From Myxococcales bacterium (lineage in GTDB: Bacteria; Myxococcota; Myxococcia; Myxococcales; Myxococcaceae), in the NCBI GenBank assembly GCA_016191815.1, contig JACPVI010000069.1:1-64000 (forward strand): a DNA stretch of 64,000 bases, given 5' to 3'. A model generated the notes under the pieces. The model was not told the DNA's origin. It made no database searches and saw nothing but the letters and a program-made list of their open reading frames with translations. This document shows positions 15,558 to 45,257 of this stretch, piece after piece. Within the stretch, counting starts at the first letter, position 1, and every line of letters starts with the position of its first letter. Position numbers and translations under genes: made by a program.

Positions 15558-16415
15558 ATGAACGCCAAGGTGACACCTCGAGTCTTCTGGATTCCGGTGT
15601 TCTTGTTCGCAGCGGGCTGCGGAGGGGCGGGGGGCGAGCTGGAGATCCAGAGCGACGAGCTTCGGGGCGTGGAGGAGACCGGTGAGGTGAGCGCGGAGCT
15701 GTCCTCCTCGGTGCCGATCGGCTCGACGCTGGCGACGACGGCGAACTTGAACCTGCGCACCGGTCCGAGCACGGGCTACCGGATCCTCCACGTGATTCCC
15801 CAGGGCGCGCACGTCACCACGGTGAACCGGACCACCCCTTCGGGCGGCTGGTACAACATCAAGCACAACGGCGTGGTGGGGTGGAGCTATGGGGGTTACC
15901 TCAAGCTGGTGTCGACGCCGAGCGGAGGGACCAGCTCCGGTCCGCGCGATGCGGCGATCGCCCGGGCCAAGACCGGCGTCGGCTTCTCGTACTGGTGGGG
16001 CCACGGCCGGTGGCTGGCGAGCGGGCCGACATCCTCCACCCGGGGCTCCTGCACCGGCTCCTGCCCGAGCTGCAGCCACTCGGGCGGCTACGGAGCGGAC
16101 TGCTCAGGCTACCTGGCGAAGGTGTGGGTGGTGCCGTCGAGCAACGACGTGCTCTCCGAGGAGGCGCACCCCTACAGCACCTGGAACTTCTACTACGAGA
16201 GCACGAGCTGGCACGGCGTCTCGCGGGGCAGCGTCCGGAAGGCCGACGCGATGGTCTACCGCAGCGACGGTGGCGGGCACACGTTCCTCTACGAGTCCGG
16301 AGATCCCTGGGGCTCGATGTGGACGTACGAGGCGCGCGGCTGCTCGTACGGCATCGTGCACAACATCCGCACTGCCTCCAGCGCGTACAAGGCGATCGCG
16401 AGAAACGGCTACTAG
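15558..16415 (+). CDS. lipoprotein with bacterial SH3 and NlpC/P60-like domains
   Basis: A 285-residue protein with signal MNAKVTPRVFWIPVFLFAAGC (lipobox AAGC). Residues about 57-115 form an SH3b domain (ATTANLNLRTGPSTGYRIL, NGVVGWSYGGYLKL), a wall-binding module. Residues 128-285 are NlpC/P60-like: YGADCSGYLAKVW supplies the likely catalytic Cys and GGGHTFLYES the likely His. Extra cysteines (GSCTGSCPSC) lie just ahead of the catalytic Cys. Known NlpC/P60 proteins cleave peptidoglycan stem peptides or related amides; substrate here unknown. It is read alone, with the next gene convergent. Confidence 0.8.
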   Translation: MNAKVTPRVFWIPVFLFAAGCGGAGGELEIQSDELRGVEETGEVSAELSSSVPIGSTLATTANLNLRTGPSTGYRILHVIPQGAHVTTVNRTTPSGGWYNIKHNGVVGWSYGGYLKLVSTPSGGTSSGPRDAAIARAKTGVGFSYWWGHGRWLASGPTSSTRGSCTGSCPSCSHSGGYGADCSGYLAKVWVVPSSNDVLSEEAHPYSTWNFYYESTSWHGVSRGSVRKADAMVYRSDGGGHTFLYESGDPWGSMWTYEARGCSYGIVHNIRTASSAYKAIARNGY

Positions 16416-16497: not shown

Positions 16498-17520
16498 TCA
16501 AGACCGGGTGCGCCGACGCACGGTGAGTCCAGCGAGAAGCAGCGACATCAGGCCGGGGAGCCCAGAGGTCGAGGCGCACCCCACCCTCGGCGGCACGTAA
16601 TCCCGCGGCGGCTCTTCTTGCGCCGGGGCCGATGGGTCAGCCGCAAAGACGCCTGAAGCCGGCGGCGGGGCGACCGACCCGGGCAGCTCGCACGCCGATG
16701 CAGCGAGCGGCTGCTCGTCCACGTCGCCCGAGACGACGGTCGCTTGCAACGGAGCGGTGCTCGATCCGTAGCGGACGTTCCCGGCGTGGTCGACGAGGTC
16801 CGTGAAGTACACCGTGTAGGTGCCCGACAAGGGTGCCTCGAACGCCCCGTCGCATTCCCAGGAACTGCCACAGGGGTGGCAGCCCAATCTGACGGTGTAG
16901 CTGCGCGGCTCCAGCCCCACCGGCCGACTGACGTGGACAAATGCCTCCGCGGCTCCCGACGAGTCGTCTCCCGCGACCAGGCGCACCCGCGCGAGACCTG
17001 GCGCACGAACCGCCGCCGACGCCGCCAGCTCGACCACCCACGGTGGCTTGAGGTCGTCCTCGCAGCTGCGGCCTCCCCGCACCTCGACCCGCACCGCTTC
17101 GACGGTGGGATTGGGCTCCATCGTCCGAATCGCGTACCGGCCGTCCTGCTGGCACTGGAGCACTCCCACCGTGCCGCGGAACACTCCGTCCGCGCCTCGG
17201 CTCAGGTAGCCCACCATCGCTCGCGTGCGGTATCGAGCGGTGCCGGTGTCCTCCTCCTCGCGAGCCAACTCGAGCCAGGGGTAGCTGAGCGCGCTTGCCG
17301 AGAGCTGCTCGCAGTACTCGCTCTCGAAGAGCTGCGTGCGCGCGCAGAACCCTGGGACGTCGACTCGGGCGCTGATCTCCAGCGCCTCTCCTGCCCGGAC
17401 CACCGACGGCACGTCCAGCGACGCGATGACGTCGGCAAACGTCGGACCCTTGGCCTCGGCGCCCAAGGCCGCCACCGCAAAGGGCAGCACCGAAAGCCGG
17501 GCGATGCGCTTCGTATCCAT
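16498..17520 (-). CDS. exported protein with a MYXO-CTERM-like C-terminal sorting signal
   Basis: A 340-residue protein. The ATG at 17520 is chosen because it starts a signal peptide (MDTKRIARLSVLPFAVAALG); the upstream extension to 17967 reads through the neighbouring region without protein character. The middle resembles an all-beta binding region with paired Cys residues (RLGCHPCGSSWECDGAF). The C-terminus has a Pro/Ala-rich spacer, then VGCASTSGLPGLMSLLLAG and RRRTRS: a Cys, a hydrophobic helix and a terminal Arg cluster. That is the layout of MYXO-CTERM sorting signals, known only in myxobacteria-related genomes. It lies 77 bp after 17598-18308 and may be the last gene of the caspase operon. 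Confidence 0.72.
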   Translation of the reverse strand: MDTKRIARLSVLPFAVAALGAEAKGPTFADVIASLDVPSVVRAGEALEISARVDVPGFCARTQLFESEYCEQLSASALSYPWLELAREEEDTGTARYRTRAMVGYLSRGADGVFRGTVGVLQCQQDGRYAIRTMEPNPTVEAVRVEVRGGRSCEDDLKPPWVVELAASAAVRAPGLARVRLVAGDDSSGAAEAFVHVSRPVGLEPRSYTVRLGCHPCGSSWECDGAFEAPLSGTYTVYFTDLVDHAGNVRYGSSTAPLQATVVSGDVDEQPLAASACELPGSVAPPPASGVFAADPSAPAQEEPPRDYVPPRVGCASTSGLPGLMSLLLAGLTVRRRTRS

Positions 17521-17597
17521 GGTTCCTCCCCGGGAAGGCCGGCTCCGCTGCCCGCCACGGCCCATATGCCCGGGGCTGCGGGAAGGGACAAACGGAC

Positions 17598-18308
17598 CTA
17601 CTGGCAGCCGGAATCGTCGCAGGAGCAGGGCACGTCCGCGGGCGCCGAGGAACAGCCGCCCTCCGGCTCGAGCTCGATCAACGGATGGGGGTTGAAGCCG
17701 GCCGCCAGTGAGCGCTCGGTGAGGTAGCCGCGATAGCCAGGCTTCCCGGCGGAGAGCGTATGTGGTCCACCCGCAACGAGCCGCCGCAGCTCGAAGTACG
17801 GCTTGATCGCTCGCGAGCACGTCGAAGCGCCGGCGATCGTCACCCGCGCGGACAGCGCGACACCGGTGCAGGCGTCGACCACGCCCCCGGTGAGAATCGC
17901 CGCCACCGCGCACCGCGCCGTCTCTGGGTGGCAAACCTCGTTCTGTGCGCAGCCGGTCGCCCCACACGACATCGGCTCGAGGGCGAAGTCCTTTCGGTTC
18001 GCTCCGGCTCGCAGCTCGAGCTCGAAGGAGGCGGGGTAATAGCCTTCCTTGGAGCCGGCTCCCTCGACGAGGCCCGGCTTCAGCCGGTCGAGCAGGAAAG
18101 CCCCGTCTCCGCCGCTGGTGGTAGTGGAAGATTCGACCTGAATCGTCACCGAGGCGAGTGGAGCGCCGCTCCGCCGGTCCATGGCGATGCCGGAGAGCCA
18201 GGCGCGCGGCGAGGGCGACAGACCATACAAGTCTTCGCTGCTGAGGCCCGGGAATCCACAGCCGGCGAGCACGAACGCCCAGAGCGCTGCCGTCGGAGTC
18301 ACTCTCAT
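17598..18308 (-). CDS. lipoprotein with carboxypeptidase regulatory-like domain
   Basis: A 236-residue lipoprotein (MRVTPTAALWAFVLAGC). Residues about 38-100 (AWLSGIAMDRRSGAPLASV..., GAFLLDRLKPG, GYYPASFELEL) match the carboxypeptidase regulatory-like beta-sandwich often found on bacterial surface proteins. A second similar unit follows (GGVVDACTGVALSARV). The tail is Cys-rich (CSSAPADVPCSCDDSGC). The ATG at 18308 has a perfect TTAGGAGGAC ribosome-binding site five bases upstream, which decides the start against the longer frame. It begins eight bases after the stop of the caspase-like gene, so the two are cotranscribed. Confidence 0.78.
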   Translation of the reverse strand: MRVTPTAALWAFVLAGCGFPGLSSEDLYGLSPSPRAWLSGIAMDRRSGAPLASVTIQVESSTTTSGGDGAFLLDRLKPGLVEGAGSKEGYYPASFELELRAGANRKDFALEPMSCGATGCAQNEVCHPETARCAVAAILTGGVVDACTGVALSARVTIAGASTCSRAIKPYFELRRLVAGGPHTLSAGKPGYRGYLTERSLAAGFNPHPLIELEPEGGCSSAPADVPCSCDDSGCQ

Positions 18309-18316
18309 CGGTCCTC

Positions 18317-20014
18317 CTAACGCCGCAACGAGAGCCCCACCCGGGCTGCCACGCCTCCGAAGGGTTGCCGCCGGCCGTCGATGCGCACCCACACCAGCTC
18401 GGCGCGCGGCTCGAGGAACGCCGCGAGCCCGGCGCCGAGGGGAAATTCGGCGCGTGCTCCCGCCTCGGCCGCGGGCGCGGTGAGGTCGCCCCGGGACGGC
18501 GCTCCCGCCTCCTCCCGCCAGACGCTTCGCAGCCCGAGCCCCGCCCACCCGGTCAACTCCACCGCCTCCCACGGCGAGAGGCGGAAGCCCGCCCTCGCGC
18601 CCAGGCTCCCACGGCGGATGAAGACCTGGCTTCCATCCGCCGCGGCACGGTGCTCGGAGCCGGCCATTCCCAGGTGTGCGCCAACCACCATCGGGCCTGC
18701 GGTGAATCGGTAGCCAGCCTCGAGGGCGTGCTCCGCGCCTGTGAGCCCGAACGGCGCGGGGGCGACCGCGTACGAGATGTCCCCGGCGTGACGCCAGCCT
18801 CGCGGCGGCGTCCCCCCCTGGCCGGCGCGGTAACCCATCGCCAGCGCCGCCACCGCCTCGTCGGTGAACGGGGCCCAGAAGCGAGTCTCGTCGGGCTCGG
18901 CCGCTTCCTCTCCGCGGGACGCAGCCACCAGCGGTTGCCAGGCGCCGGCCGCGGGCAATTCCACGCGCGCGCCTCCGGCGAGCTCGACCTCCACCGCCTC
19001 GGCATGGCGGGCGCCCATCCGTACGACCTGCAGCCGCACCTCGGGGAGCGTCAGCTTGAGGGCGCGCCCCGGAGCTTTGTGGACCTCGACGAGCAGACGC
19101 CCACCGCGCGAGGTGCGCACCTGGAAGCGCCCGGCCACCTCGGGGCCCAATACCAGGCCTCCGAGCGCTCGCAGGTCGATCACCGTCGCGGAGAGATCTC
19201 CCTCCGGGGGCTTGAACCAGGGCCGCTGCGAGGTGCGGCGCTGGATGTTGAGCGCGACGAAGGCCGCCAACTCGCCATAGCTCACCAGCTGGTTACCGTC
19301 CGCGTCCGCGCCTCCGGCGATTCCCGAAGCGAGCACGTGCGAGAAGTAGCCGGCCTCGAGCCTCGCGTCCTCGCCGGCGGGCTCGCCCGAGAGGGCCGCC
19401 GCGAGCATTCCCAGCCGGACGCCGCGCGCCCTGGATTCGAAGGCCTCGATCTCCGCGCTCAAGTCCGGGGCCGGGCCGCGATCGGCGAACAGGCTCTGCG
19501 AGCGGCAGGCGTCGAAGAACAGGCTGGCCTGATCCGGCCGCGCTTCCGCGATCGCGGCGCGCAGCTCTCGGCCGGTGATCGCCGCCTCCTCGCCGACCTC
19601 GGGCGCGAGGAGGAACCTCCCCTCCAGCCCGTGCCCCGCGTAGACGAAGTAGAGCGTCGCCTTGCGGCCGGGAGGACGCCGGCGCATCCGCTCCGCGACT
19701 TCGGCGAGCGCAGCGGACAGCGCGGAGCGAGTGGGCGGCCGCGTCGTGGGTGCCAGAAGGCCTGCCGCTTCGAGCGCCCGCCTGGAGTCCGAATCGAGTT
19801 TGGTGAGGAGCCACACCTGCTCCGCGCCTGCGATCGCTCCGAAGAGCATCGCGAAGCGGAGGGCGTCGTCGTCGGCGAAGCGCAATTCCGGCAGGCCTCT
19901 GGGGGCGGACGGGGAGCCGACCGGCAATCCTCCGTTGTGCCCCACCACCACCGCGTAGACCTCGTCCCCGGACGCGGAGGCGAGCAGCGCGAGCAGCAGG
20001 CCGGAGGCGATCAT
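18317..20014 (-). CDS. secreted caspase-family protease fused to a barrel-like C-terminal region
   Basis: A 565-residue protein starting with an export signal (MIASGLLLALLASASGDE). Residues about 18-260 are a caspase-like (peptidase C14) domain: VYAVVVGHN, RFADDDALRF, TLYFVYAGHG (catalytic His) and ASLFFDACRSQ (catalytic Cys). Residues about 270-400 are beta-rich. From about residue 410 to the end, alternating aromatic/hydrophobic and Gly-rich segments (LEAGYRFTAGPMVVGAHLGM, RAGFRLSPWEAVELTGWAGL) look like a small outer-membrane barrel. The ATG at 20014 overlaps the anti-sigma stop (ATGA). Enzyme activity is plausible because both catalytic residues are present; substrate and localisation are inferred. 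Confidence 0.8.
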   Translation of the reverse strand: MIASGLLLALLASASGDEVYAVVVGHNGGLPVGSPSAPRGLPELRFADDDALRFAMLFGAIAGAEQVWLLTKLDSDSRRALEAAGLLAPTTRPPTRSALSAALAEVAERMRRRPPGRKATLYFVYAGHGLEGRFLLAPEVGEEAAITGRELRAAIAEARPDQASLFFDACRSQSLFADRGPAPDLSAEIEAFESRARGVRLGMLAAALSGEPAGEDARLEAGYFSHVLASGIAGGADADGNQLVSYGELAAFVALNIQRRTSQRPWFKPPEGDLSATVIDLRALGGLVLGPEVAGRFQVRTSRGGRLLVEVHKAPGRALKLTLPEVRLQVVRMGARHAEAVEVELAGGARVELPAAGAWQPLVAASRGEEAAEPDETRFWAPFTDEAVAALAMGYRAGQGGTPPRGWRHAGDISYAVAPAPFGLTGAEHALEAGYRFTAGPMVVGAHLGMAGSEHRAAADGSQVFIRRGSLGARAGFRLSPWEAVELTGWAGLGLRSVWREEAGAPSRGDLTAPAAEAGARAEFPLGAGLAAFLEPRAELVWVRIDGRRQPFGGVAARVGLSLRR

Positions 20015-21030
20015 CGCGCGATCAAGAACAGGCCGCTCGCCTGCTGGCCAGTGGTGTCCAGTCGGTGGCGCCCGCGAAGGTCGCTCGCGGCTTCCCGCGC
20101 CGCCGCCTCGAGACGGCCAGCGTCCAGCCGTTGGGGCGAGAGCACCGCGAAGACGCGAACCAGCCCGAGGCGGTGTCTCTCGCTCAGAGAGACGCTGGAG
20201 CCGACCGGCCGCGGCTCTCTCGTCGGCGGGAGCGGGCCTTGCCCAACCTGTGGCGGGAAGTACCAATGCACCTCTCCGCCGGCCTGCACCCCGAGGATCG
20301 CCAGGTAGCCCGGGGCGAGCTGGTGCGCATAGCTGAACTGGACCAGGTCGCGGGCAGAAAGCTGCCCCTCGCCAGAGCCGGGAAGCTCCGCCACCAGCCG
20401 CAGCGTGCCGGGGGCGTCCGCGGCGCGAGCGTGGACGAGCACCGAGAGATCAGCTGCCTCTTTGCCGCCGCCGCGGAAGCCGACCTCCGCGCCGCGATCC
20501 TCCGCCGGCCTCCCAAAGGTTACGAACAGCGCGACTCCGGCTGCTGCGGCGGCGAGCCCCGCGGCAGCCCATCTGGCCCAGGCTCGGGTTTTGCCCTTTT
20601 CCGCCTGCTGCGGCCGGTCTCTCCGGGGCCGGGCATCGGTGCTCGGCACATTTCGGTCTCGACGTACGTCCAGTACGCCGTCGACCGAAATGGCCTGCGC
20701 GCCTCGCGCGGCCTCCGGCGATCCTCGGCCTCGCGACGCCGGAAGAGGGCGAAACCCGAGCCACAGCCACGACGGAGAACCGCCTGCGACGGCCGGCGAA
20801 GGCGGAGGCGCCGCCAGCGCCTCTTCGAGGCGGGCCAGCTCGCGCCTCGATTGGTCCTCGGTCGCCTGCGCCGCGCCCCTCAGCGCGCGGGCGGCGAGGC
20901 TGAGCGCGTCGTAGTGCCCGCGACAGCTCTCGCATCCCCCTAGGTGCGCGCGCAGCCGCAGCTCTGCCGTGGCGTCCAGCTCGCCAGCTACCGCCCGCTC
21001 GATCTCCCTCCTCCGAAGCAACAGGCTCAT
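20011..21030 (-). CDS. zinc-finger anti-sigma factor with DUF4384-like C-terminal domain
   Basis: A 339-residue protein. Residues 1-45 (ELRLRAHLGGCESCRGHYDAL) carry the H-x3-C-x2-C zinc motif of zf-HC2 anti-sigma factors. A Pro/Ala-rich spacer and a membrane helix (AAAGLAAAAAGVALFVTF, about residues 155-172) follow. The extracytoplasmic part includes LSARDLVQFSYAHQLAPGYL and GGEVHWYFPP, resembling DUF4384 modules seen near caspase-like proteins. It overlaps the sigma gene upstream and the caspase gene downstream by four bases each (ATGA). Expected role: hold the cognate sigma factor at the membrane until a periplasmic signal arrives. Confidence 0.8.
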   Translation of the reverse strand: MSLLLRRREIERAVAGELDATAELRLRAHLGGCESCRGHYDALSLAARALRGAAQATEDQSRRELARLEEALAAPPPSPAVAGGSPSWLWLGFRPLPASRGRGSPEAARGAQAISVDGVLDVRRDRNVPSTDARPRRDRPQQAEKGKTRAWARWAAAGLAAAAAGVALFVTFGRPAEDRGAEVGFRGGGKEAADLSVLVHARAADAPGTLRLVAELPGSGEGQLSARDLVQFSYAHQLAPGYLAILGVQAGGEVHWYFPPQVGQGPLPPTREPRPVGSSVSLSERHRLGLVRVFAVLSPQRLDAGRLEAAAREAASDLRGRHRLDTTGQQASGLFLIAR

Positions 21031-21617
21031 CCGGCGCCCTCCGGCTCGAGCTCCGCCAGCGCCTGGCGGATGGAGGGATCGGCAGCCGCGCGCGCCAGCA
21101 CCTTCCGGCGCAGGTACTTGGAGCGGCGGACCGAGATCCCCAGTGCCAAGGCGACCTCCTCGTGCGAGCGCTCCTCGACCAGGCTGAGCGAGAGCGCCAT
21201 CCGCTCATGCTCCGGCAACGAGCGGGCGAAGCGGGTCACCGCCTCTCTCGCCCGCGCGCGCCTCGCCTCGTGCTCGGGGCCGGGCTCATCGAGGGGCAGC
21301 TCCTCGGACAGCTCCTCGGACGCGCTGGGCCGGCGGCCCTTGGCCCGCAAGAGCTCCTTGCAGCGATTGGCGGCCAAAGCCCTCAGCCAGGGCCGAAGCT
21401 CGCCCGCCTCGGGCTGGTAGCGGGTGCTCATCCGGTGCACCGTGAGCCAGATCTCCTGCACGGCTTCCTCCTGCTCGAAGGGGCTCGAGAAGAAGCGCGA
21501 GGCCCACTGTCGCACGTCCGCCGCGTGAGCGCGGTAGACCGCGAAGAAGGCGGTTCCCTCGCCCAGGCTGAAGCGGCGCAAGAGCGCGGGTGCTCGCGCC
21601 TCGTCCTGTTGCGCCAC
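21027..21617 (-). CDS. ECF-like RNA polymerase sigma factor
   Basis: A 196-residue sigma-70-family protein. Region 2 is visible as FFAVYRAHAADVRQWASRFF and QEEAVQEIWLTVHRMSTRY, region 4 as LPEHERMALSLSLVEERSHE and LALGISVRRSKYLRRKVLA. The latter is a helix-turn-helix diverging from the common ECF pattern. The GTG at 21617 is chosen because GGAGGTGAG lies just upstream; the frame extends to a TTG at 21662 with no such site. It heads a tightly overlapping unit with the anti-sigma factor and the caspase-like protein. asnS lies 60 bp upstream on the same strand, so partial readthrough is possible. Confidence 0.82.
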   Translation of the reverse strand: MAQQDEARAPALLRRFSLGEGTAFFAVYRAHAADVRQWASRFFSSPFEQEEAVQEIWLTVHRMSTRYQPEAGELRPWLRALAANRCKELLRAKGRRPSASEELSEELPLDEPGPEHEARRARAREAVTRFARSLPEHERMALSLSLVEERSHEEVALALGISVRRSKYLRRKVLARAAADPSIRQALAELEPEGAG

Positions 21618-21677
21618 CCTCTCACCTCCTCGAGGTATGCCGGGGGCCCCCTCGCAGGACAACGCGGCGGGGCGTGG

Positions 21678-44242: not shown

Positions 44243-44896
44243 TTGTCGAGCGACGTGCTCGAGATCGCCGTGGGAGAGCCACTCGCGCGCGACGAGGGCC
44301 AGCCCGAGGTGATCTCCGAGCGGGTGTTGCTCTCCCGCCTGCGCCGGCGGGACCGGAGCGCCTTCGAGCTTCTGGTCCGGTCTCACCAGGACCGGGTGTT
44401 CGATTTCTGCGTCCGCATGCTGGGGGACAAAGAGGAGGCGATGGATCTGGTGCAGGAGATCTTCGTCAGCGTCCACCAGAACCTCGACCGGTTCCGGCAG
44501 GACAGCAAGCTCGCGACGTGGATCTTTCGGATCAGCAAGAACCATTGCCTCAATCGGCTGAAGTACCTCAAGCGGCGGGGGCGGGGCCGCTCGGACGAGC
44601 TGGGCGAAGTGCCCGAAGGAGAGCTGACCGCCTCGGCGGATCCTCCCCCAAAGCCCGATGAGGCCCTGGAGGCCGCGCGGGAACGCGAGCTGGTGCGCCG
44701 CGCCATCGCGTTCCTGGACGAGGACCAGCGGCTCGTGGTGGCGCTCCGGGACATCGAGGGACTCTCCTACGAGGAGATCGTCGAGGTGACTGACCTGCCG
44801 GAGGGGACGGTGAAGAGCCGCCTCCATCGCGCGCGGGAGAAGCTGGTGGAGATCATCGCCCGCCTTGAGACAGAGGCCGGCTGTGGAGGAGACTGA
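44243..44896 (+). CDS. RpoE-like ECF sigma factor
   Basis: A 217-residue ECF sigma factor. Region 2 is FELLVRSHQDRVFDFCVRML and KEEAMDLVQEIFVSVHQNLD; region 4 is LRDIEGLSYEEIVEVTDLPE and GTVKSRLHRAREKLVE, very close to the RpoE/SigW pattern. It starts at TTG 44243. A zinc-finger anti-sigma gene overlaps its 3' end by 14 bases. This is the third sigma/anti-sigma pair in the window and sits just upstream of lysS and the BAM/LPS genes, so an envelope-stress role is plausible but unproven. Confidence 0.92.
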   Translation: MSSDVLEIAVGEPLARDEGQPEVISERVLLSRLRRRDRSAFELLVRSHQDRVFDFCVRMLGDKEEAMDLVQEIFVSVHQNLDRFRQDSKLATWIFRISKNHCLNRLKYLKRRGRGRSDELGEVPEGELTASADPPPKPDEALEAARERELVRRAIAFLDEDQRLVVALRDIEGLSYEEIVEVTDLPEGTVKSRLHRAREKLVEIIARLETEAGCGGD

Positions 44897-45257
44897 GGAA
44901 GCCGTGCAGATCCAGCTTTCACATAGCGAGGCGAGGGGCCTGTTCCTGGCGGCGCTGGACGACGAGCTGCCGGACCGGGAAGGGGAGCGCCTGAGGGCCC
45001 ACCTCGACGGCTGCGCGGACTGCCGGACCGGTTGGGAGCGGTACCACCGCACCGCGGAGTTGCTCGGGCGCGTCGAGCGCGAGAGGGTGCCCCCGGCGCT
45101 GGCGACCTTGATCATGCGAAGGGTCCGCCGCCGGCGGCTCTTCGGGCAGCGCGGCCTGTTCCAGGCGCAGGTGTACTACCGGGTGCCAGTGGAGGCGATC
45201 ATCCCGGTCCTCCTGGGAGTGCTGGTGGCGGCGTTCCTGGTGTTGATCGCGCCCTGA
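44883..45257 (+). CDS. zinc-finger anti-sigma factor
   Basis: A 124-residue protein with a zf-HC2 domain (RLRAHLDGCADCRTGWERY; the H-x3-C-x2-C site) and one C-terminal membrane helix (PVEAIIPVLLGVLVAAFLVL). The helix is near the very end, so almost nothing lies outside the cell. Start GTG 44883 overlaps the sigma gene; GTG 44904 is an alternative with GAGGAA upstream. Presumed to sequester the sigma factor encoded next to it. Confidence 0.85.
   Translation: MEETEEAVQIQLSHSEARGLFLAALDDELPDREGERLRAHLDGCADCRTGWERYHRTAELLGRVERERVPPALATLIMRRVRRRRLFGQRGLFQAQVYYRVPVEAIIPVLLGVLVAAFLVLIAP

Follow-up and report, generated by a model that had tools for sequence, protein, structure and literature searches.

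We propose that an exported caspase with specificity for Arg/Lys, encoded in a five-gene unit of the window (the whole stretch of 64 000 nucleotides of Myxococcales DNA analysed here), acts as site-1 protease on the anti-sigma factor with which it is paired, and that the unit would thereby form a closed positive-feedback envelope switch; we put the probability of this reading at roughly 55%. The Arg-Gly motif in the activation loop of the protease recurs at the exposed neck of the anti-sigma factor, so that the protease probably cuts this membrane-held switch and thereby turns on the unit. An earlier, sequence-only reading of this DNA had the caspase made under control of the sigma factor, and missed that the caspase probably also activates that sigma factor by cutting the anti-sigma factor.

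Organization and conservation of the gene unit

The five genes all lie on the minus strand and encode an ECF sigma factor of 196 amino acids (21027..21617, GTG start), a membrane anti-sigma factor of 339 amino acids (20011..21030, ATG start), a C14B-like exported caspase of 565 amino acids with a C-terminal outer-membrane barrel (18317..20014, ATG start), a lipoprotein of 236 amino acids (17598..18308) and a secreted MYXO-CTERM-like protein of 340 amino acids (16498..17520). The sigma and anti-sigma genes overlap by 4 bp, as do the anti-sigma and caspase genes, and the lipoprotein gene follows after a gap of 8 bp, in agreement with the spacing first read from the sequence; a further 77 bp separate it from the MYXO-CTERM-like gene. 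The sigma factor exceeds the cut-offs of Pfam Sigma70_r2 (9e-13) and r4_2 and of NCBIfam sigma70-ECF (4e-20). With an operon deduced from the overlaps, the unit would belong with the sigma–metacaspase operons reported in 2012 from Myxococcus, Anaeromyxobacter, Haliangium, Sorangium, Ralstonia and Fibrobacter (Asplund-Samuelsson et al., PMC3501461), where four of the five metacaspases of M. xanthus share an operon with a sigma factor. The module is therefore not undescribed, as had been suggested. The main text of that report makes no mention of anti-sigma factors, and to the pairing of sigma factor and metacaspase in one operon we add a barrel tail on the caspase, a lipoprotein conserved with the unit, a promoter motif and an Arg/Lys-Gly motif common to caspase and anti-sigma factor; the new element is a barrel-tailed caspase subtype of the sigma–metacaspase unit.

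Relatives were sampled from the Myxococcota (173 unique caspases). The same block recurs in other genomes, the outcome sought when conservation of the neighbourhood was proposed as a check, and the unit is thus more than a chance arrangement. The barrel-tailed subtype, consisting of sigma factor, anti-sigma factor, caspase–barrel and lipoprotein, was found in nine Myxococcales genomes, some of them with partial units.

The caspase and its barrel tail

The match of the third gene product to Peptidase_C14 is borderline (20.8 bits in one search and 22.8 in another, against a cut-off of 21.4), and the genome holds eight C14 matches in all. The catalytic His128 (YAGHG; 19631..19633, minus strand) and Cys170 (FFDACR; 19505..19507, minus strand) are intact, as had been claimed, and are invariant in 110/110 and 109/109 relatives, respectively; several paralogues carry GH[S/A] where others have GHG, with the catalytic His retained. 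Its p20-type fold, with the His-Cys dyad intact, places the protein among the C14B metacaspases and orthocaspases. The N-terminal part of the AlphaFold2 model matches the folds of legumain and caspase-6 (Foldseek), and a search of the PDB by sequence found no relative. The export signal read from the sequence was confirmed.

Metacaspases and orthocaspases cleave after Arg or Lys, and the single characterised orthocaspase processes itself (PMC5756287). Asp50 and Asp168, both kept in 110/110 relatives, correspond in position to the α1 and L4 acids of TbMCA2 and MALT1 (PMC4357240) and, by analogy with those enzymes, would form an acidic S1 pocket for a basic P1 residue. The sequence and the model together point to R179|G180 (LFADRG; 19475..19480, minus strand), in the loop that follows the catalytic Cys, as a putative autoprocessing site: Leu175, Phe176, Arg179 and Gly180 are invariant within the barrel-tailed subtype, nearly all relatives have an equivalent [R/K][G/K] at a fixed distance, 8–10 residues past the catalytic Cys, and the pLDDT of residues 171–189 is below 50 (AlphaFold2).

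The sequence-only reading had also supposed a barrel-like tail, and structure prediction agrees. Residues 408–564 (18323..18793, minus strand) are modelled by AlphaFold2 as an outer-membrane β-barrel of eight antiparallel strands, with pLDDT mostly 70–90, and the top PDB folds retrieved by Foldseek are OmpA, OmpX, NspA and Ail, so that the tail is predicted to be of the OmpA/OmpX type. In joining a protease to an outer-membrane barrel at its C-terminus, the protein resembles the type V autotransporters; these, however, have 12 strands, whereas the caspase tail has 8, and PF03797 scores 17.4 bits against a cut-off of 26. With eight strands instead of 12, the protease would be expected to stay periplasmic. 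The conserved neighbourhood and the predicted barrel favour the earlier picture, in which a caspase anchored in the envelope is encoded next to an ECF sigma factor held at the membrane.

The anti-sigma factor and its neck motif

The anti-sigma factor has the architecture of a RIP-type membrane anti-sigma factor: a zf-HC2-type cytoplasmic domain, a linker, one transmembrane helix (residues 147–172; 20515..20592, minus strand; AlphaFold2), a disordered neck (residues 173–190) and a periplasmic β domain (residues 195–338; 20017..20448, minus strand; pLDDT mostly above 85). It had been described as zf-HC2/DUF4384-like; the first half of that description holds (22.5 bits, cut-off 22.2), but DUF4384 is weak for this copy (11.7 bits against 27), although three of 21 relatives do match it. 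No PDB fold matched the periplasmic domain with E below 0.001, and its resemblance to a RhoGDI/PDE6D-like β-sandwich is weak and not significant. A dispersed inverted-repeat element has inserted in frame in the cytoplasmic linker (20585..20781, minus strand); its arms are 83% complementary, and there are further copies in the genome. Homologues are without this stretch.

We propose R186|G187 (VGFRGGG; 20470..20475, minus strand), in the juxtamembrane neck, as the site of caspase cleavage. The pLDDT falls below 50 around these two residues, which lie between the transmembrane helix and the folded domain, and Gly187 is one of three near-invariant columns in an alignment of 21 anti-sigma factors. 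A motif [W/F/V]xx[R/K][G/S/A/K] just outside the transmembrane helix, 5–25 residues past it, occurs in 103 of 110 caspase-linked anti-sigma factors, as against 4/28 unlinked zf-HC2 anti-sigma factors, a control set drawn mostly from other anti-sigma families, and 27/110 in shuffles. When anti-sigma factors were picked solely by their own profile, a caspase lay within 3.5 kb of 34 out of 40. Six of the same family without a nearby caspase retain the motif, which may therefore be a trait of these anti-sigma factors as a family or a target for cleavage in trans.

The persistence of the motif in these six loci would also suit a caspase that is output only, made by way of the sigma factor as a protease of the periplasm or cell surface that serves in autolysis, predation or defence, with some other Arg-directed protease cutting the anti-sigma factor. 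Caspases are typical effector proteins, and for Myxococcus a part in autolysis has been suggested (PMC3501461). We consider this unlikely, since it leaves unexplained both the frequent pairing of anti-sigma factor and caspase and the copy of the motif in the caspase itself, and since the regulon showed no gene for a toxin or other effector. PADLOC likewise yields just a generic caspase profile and no system; we accordingly do not class the unit as a defence system, and we found no evidence for the self/nonself role once suggested for it.

The identity of the basic residue, Arg or Lys, agrees between loop and neck in 171/180 units, scored by alignment column with a stricter rule for the loop. 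By raw counts, phylogeny aside, the agreement is striking (Fisher, about 1e-37). On the tree, it reduces to about two to three independent switches and a sign test that is not significant, and for this reason we dropped the covariation as independent proof. The tree also leaves about five single-sided mismatches (L084, L245, L293, L294 and L238).

Promoter motif, lipoprotein and fifth gene

A promoter-like motif, TTGTCC-N15-GGCATA, lies 19 bp before the sigma gene (21636..21662, minus strand), and a second copy lies 45 bp before the MYXO-CTERM-like gene (17565..17591, minus strand), inside the 77-bp gap. The 6.8-Mb genome has exactly these two matches, and the count expected in the window is 0.01. 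The motif is kept before the sigma gene in L048, L049, L051, L125, L126, L127 and L388, and in related genomes it also precedes exported or lipoprotein genes. The sigma factor is apparently autoregulated, and we assign the MYXO-CTERM-like gene to the regulon because it carries the second copy. This tie of the fifth gene to the unit, judged from the motif sequence, had been overlooked: the 77-bp spacing had been recorded correctly, but the gap holds a promoter motif of its own, and the protein, which has no Pfam match, is missing from the other units compared.

The lipoprotein combines a CarboxypepD_reg domain (PF13620, 39 bits) with a Cys-rich domain, and has orthologues 3′ of the caspase in L047, L048, L049 and L050 and a partial one in L039. 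With a regulon of exported proteins and lipoproteins, and a lipoprotein as the conserved fourth gene, the barrel-anchored caspase might instead mature the surface proteins of its own regulon (the lipoprotein and the MYXO-CTERM-like protein) in the manner of a sortase. We think this improbable, because a conserved [phi]xxR[G/S] site was not seen in the lipoprotein alignment, conservation of the unit does not extend to the MYXO-CTERM-like gene, and the lipoprotein was seen solely beside barrel-tailed caspases among the units compared. More improbable still is that the Arg/Lys-Gly motifs are hinge glycines or docking sites at which the caspase binds without cleavage, as a co-inhibitor or sensor: the glycine after the basic residue is indeed the most conserved feature, but the anti-sigma motif falls in a predicted disordered segment, and the dyad and S1 acids, unneeded in a non-catalytic role, are retained in all relatives.

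A model for the proposed switch

In the proposed switch, the caspase would be secreted as a zymogen, its barrel would insert in the outer membrane so that the protease domain points into the periplasm (eight strands would leave no passenger pore), and the protease would process itself at R179|G180. On an envelope signal, it would cut the anti-sigma factor at R186|G187 (site 1), after which an M50 (RseP-type) protease, for which the genome encodes site-2 candidates, and cytosolic proteases would free the sigma factor to transcribe the operon and the MYXO-CTERM-like gene. As the genome has eight C14 matches, the cognate pairing of this caspase and this anti-sigma factor is our assumption. An outer-membrane protease must reach the inner-membrane neck across the periplasm, a point against the mechanism. 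Relatives with hydrophobic C-terminal segments may sit at the inner membrane, and the barrel subtype may couple the switch to outer-membrane assembly, because unassembled caspase would remain near the anti-sigma factor.

Comparison with known systems

The proposed pathway resembles RseA/DegS/RseP/RpoE in its membrane anti-sigma factor, putative juxtamembrane site-1 cut, M50 candidates and apparently autoregulated ECF sigma factor; the site-1 protease there is a PDZ-trypsin, whereas here it would be an operon-encoded caspase. In the type III-E CRISPR system Craspase (Csx29/Csx30/CASP-sigma; PMC10028731), a clan CD protease also cuts an inhibitor of an ECF sigma factor encoded in the same locus, but that protease is a cytoplasmic, RNA-triggered TPR-CHAT protein acting with Cas7-11, in contrast to the exported C14 caspase and membrane anti-sigma factor described here; neither a CHAT match (Pfam) nor a Cas protein (PADLOC) was found in the five genes. 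Caspases with variable C-termini also adjoin ECF sigma genes in the EACC2–caspase neighbourhoods, for which autopeptidase activation has been proposed (PMC8195603). No EACC domain was seen here, and the caspase is exported and accompanied by a membrane anti-sigma factor. The profile for EACC1-associated caspases, NF047832, gave 29 bits against a cut-off of 140.

More tentatively, at what we judge to be just short of even odds, a widespread class of bacterial caspases may serve as site-1 proteases of ECF anti-sigma factors, being exported, Arg/Lys-specific and self-activated at a loop motif that is copied in the juxtamembrane neck of the cognate anti-sigma factor; the subtype in the window, tied to an OmpX-like barrel, may then signal outer-membrane assembly to the inner membrane. 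The role of bacterial caspases has been open since their discovery, and for most of them a role as effectors of cell death has been guessed at. From sequence alone, the present analysis names a candidate substrate, bond and autoprocessing site for a large family, so that a signalling role can be put to a direct test, with the promoter motif as a ready reporter. If the proposal is true, these caspases would be a new kind of site-1 protease in regulated intramembrane proteolysis, with a logic that parallels the CRISPR-associated Csx29/Csx30 pair but belongs to the envelope; the barrel subtype would represent an outer-membrane-anchored version.

The gene unit and its surroundings

Five genes lie together on the reverse strand, encoding an ECF sigma factor (21617-21027), a zf-HC2 anti-sigma factor (21030-20011), a caspase (20014-18317) and a lipoprotein (18308-17598), these four placed by Pfam/NCBIfam profile families, and a MYXO-CTERM-like secreted protein (17520-16498). 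The coordinates agree with the four-base overlaps, the eight-base gap and the 77-bp spacing claimed in the sequence-only reading, and the catalytic pair claimed for the caspase, His128 and Cys170, is present and conserved among relatives; the anatomy of the unit is confirmed. The description of the anti-sigma factor as 'zf-HC2/DUF4384-like' held for zf-HC2, barely (22.5 bits, cut-off 22.2), and failed for DUF4384 (11.7 versus 27). A dispersed element of approximately 200 bp (20585-20781), with copies elsewhere in the genome, is inserted in frame in the stretch of the anti-sigma gene that separates the zinc finger from the membrane helix. Its ends are inverted repeats (ACTCGGGTTTCGCCCTTTTCCGCC and its complement) flanking a core that varies between copies; the remaining copies inspected (sites C30, C7, C6 and C33) all lie between called genes.

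On the opposite strand, an exported protein with an SH3_3 profile match (15558-16415) also has a weak NlpC/P60-type match and is possibly a cell-wall hydrolase. A separate second ECF sigma gene (13214-12687), overlapped by a putative anti-sigma gene (12690-11884), lies a few kilobases downstream of the unit and has no caspase, and a third ECF-type sigma gene is followed by one for a short zf-HC2 anti-sigma without an extended periplasmic domain (both genes together 44243-45257).

A barrel-tailed subtype of a widespread family

Exported caspases adjoining a sigma/anti-sigma pair are common across Myxococcota, where we sampled 110 unique sigma-linked units (84 in line, 26 divergent). An anti-sigma-like gene is adjacent to 162 of 173 unique caspases, with a zinc-finger motif in 135 of those 162, and the N-terminus is signal-like in 169/179. 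A hydrophobic segment in the C-terminal part is clear in 36 of the 179 and weaker in 43; the window's clade has the barrel at this position. Asplund-Samuelsson et al. described sigma-metacaspase operons in 2012 (PMC3501461), and we found no experimental study of them in the open-access literature, where most subscription papers are missing. The candidate for an undescribed module is thus of a known kind, the sigma-metacaspase operon; what is new is the subtype in which the caspase ends in a barrel and the unit has a promoter motif of its own.

Besides the window's own, a few Myxococcales genomes encode the caspase-barrel: G004, G018, G025, G159, G162 and G038 (the last being JAHFDP010000005.1), together with G005, where it is divided between two contigs, and G107, where it is represented by an N-terminal part only. 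The order sigma, anti-sigma, caspase-barrel holds wherever contig extent permits, so that the neighbourhood does recur in other Myxococcales genomes. The lipoprotein gene comes next in loci L047, L048, L049 and L050, and partially in L039, among contigs that reach that far and were looked at; the fifth gene is not kept beside the unit in relatives, and the flanking genes vary between genomes (asparagine-tRNA ligase in the window).

In an AlphaFold2 model of the window's caspase, with five full-length relatives as input (mean pLDDT 72), the caspase domain is followed by a small beta domain (~285-352) and, at 408-564, by exactly eight long strands, bearing out the suggested barrel. OmpA, OmpX, NspA and Ail rank first among PDB folds (Foldseek, E ~1e-7 to 1e-5), and the N-terminal part matches legumain-type enzymes (E 1e-4) and caspase-6 (E 1e-3). 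The C-terminus reads ...GASLWF or ...GASLWW in some relatives, resembling an outer-membrane beta-signal, and ...GLSLRR in the window's caspase. Because an eight-stranded barrel has no passenger channel, the protease domain would be expected to face the periplasm.

Promoter motif and probable regulon

An alignment of sigma-gene starts revealed TTTGTCC-N14/15-GGCATA. The window's genome as a whole contains TTGTCC-N13-16-GGCATA at two places, both inside the window (chance expectation there 0.01), before the sigma gene (21636-21662) and before the MYXO-CTERM-like gene (17565-17591); a longer pattern, with two mismatches allowed, gave no additional place in that genome. Matches in other unit-bearing genomes are intergenic, most of them 9-21 bp upstream of the sigma gene or of exported/lipoprotein genes, and three of four matches in two genomes lacking the barrel subtype fall inside genes. 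We infer that the unit's sigma factor reads this motif. The regulon is accordingly probably tiny, made up of the operon plus one or a few surface proteins. In other genomes, lipoprotein genes away from the unit (L390, L391, L393 and L394) carry the motif 9-13 bp before their starts and are likely regulon members.

A candidate cleavage motif in both partners

Two acidic residues of the caspase, D50 in alpha1 and D168 two positions ahead of the Cys, are invariant across the 110 sigma-linked units and match by position the S1 acids of TbMCA2 and MALT1, which recognise Arg/Lys (PMC4357240). The motif [W/F/V]xx[R/K][G/S/A/K], 5-25 residues past the membrane helix, is found in 103/110 caspase-linked anti-sigmas, in 27/110 in shuffles, and in 4/28 same-phylum zf-HC2 anti-sigmas without a caspase, which belong largely to other anti-sigma families. 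Three columns of a 21-member alignment are near-invariant, the motif's Gly among them. For the window's anti-sigma, AlphaFold2 places R186-G187 in a disordered stretch (173-190) that links the membrane helix (147-172) to a well-folded domain (195-338).

Nearly every caspase likewise has [R/K] followed by G or K some 8-10 residues after the catalytic Cys, in a low-confidence loop of the model. C14 enzymes are self-processed near this region, and the sole characterised orthocaspase self-processes (PMC5756287). Within the barrel clade the two sites are alike (in L126, FTERG in the caspase and VTERG in the anti-sigma). Their R-or-K identity is concordant in 171/180 units, an agreement stemming mainly from two K clades, with about five true mismatches left and too few phylogenetically independent contrasts. 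In a second large clade of these caspases (L345-L351, L256-L282 and others), both motifs have Lys instead of Arg, the anti-sigma necks take the form DYVGxKGG and, among the members inspected, the catalytic His lies in GH[S/A] rather than GHG.

Of 40 further anti-sigmas chosen by profile alone, 34 have a caspase within 3.5 kb; since the other six keep the motif, it is a mark of the anti-sigma family. Those six (L352, L355, L356, L372, L380 and L384), of the same family and with a K-G motif, are candidate targets of a trans-acting caspase.

We put forward the specific, testable proposal that these caspases would be the site-1 proteases of their anti-sigmas, making the first cut at this motif. 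Once inserted, the mature caspase may be held apart from the anti-sigma neck at the inner membrane, in which case, at a guess, the switch would fire when barrel assembly fails.
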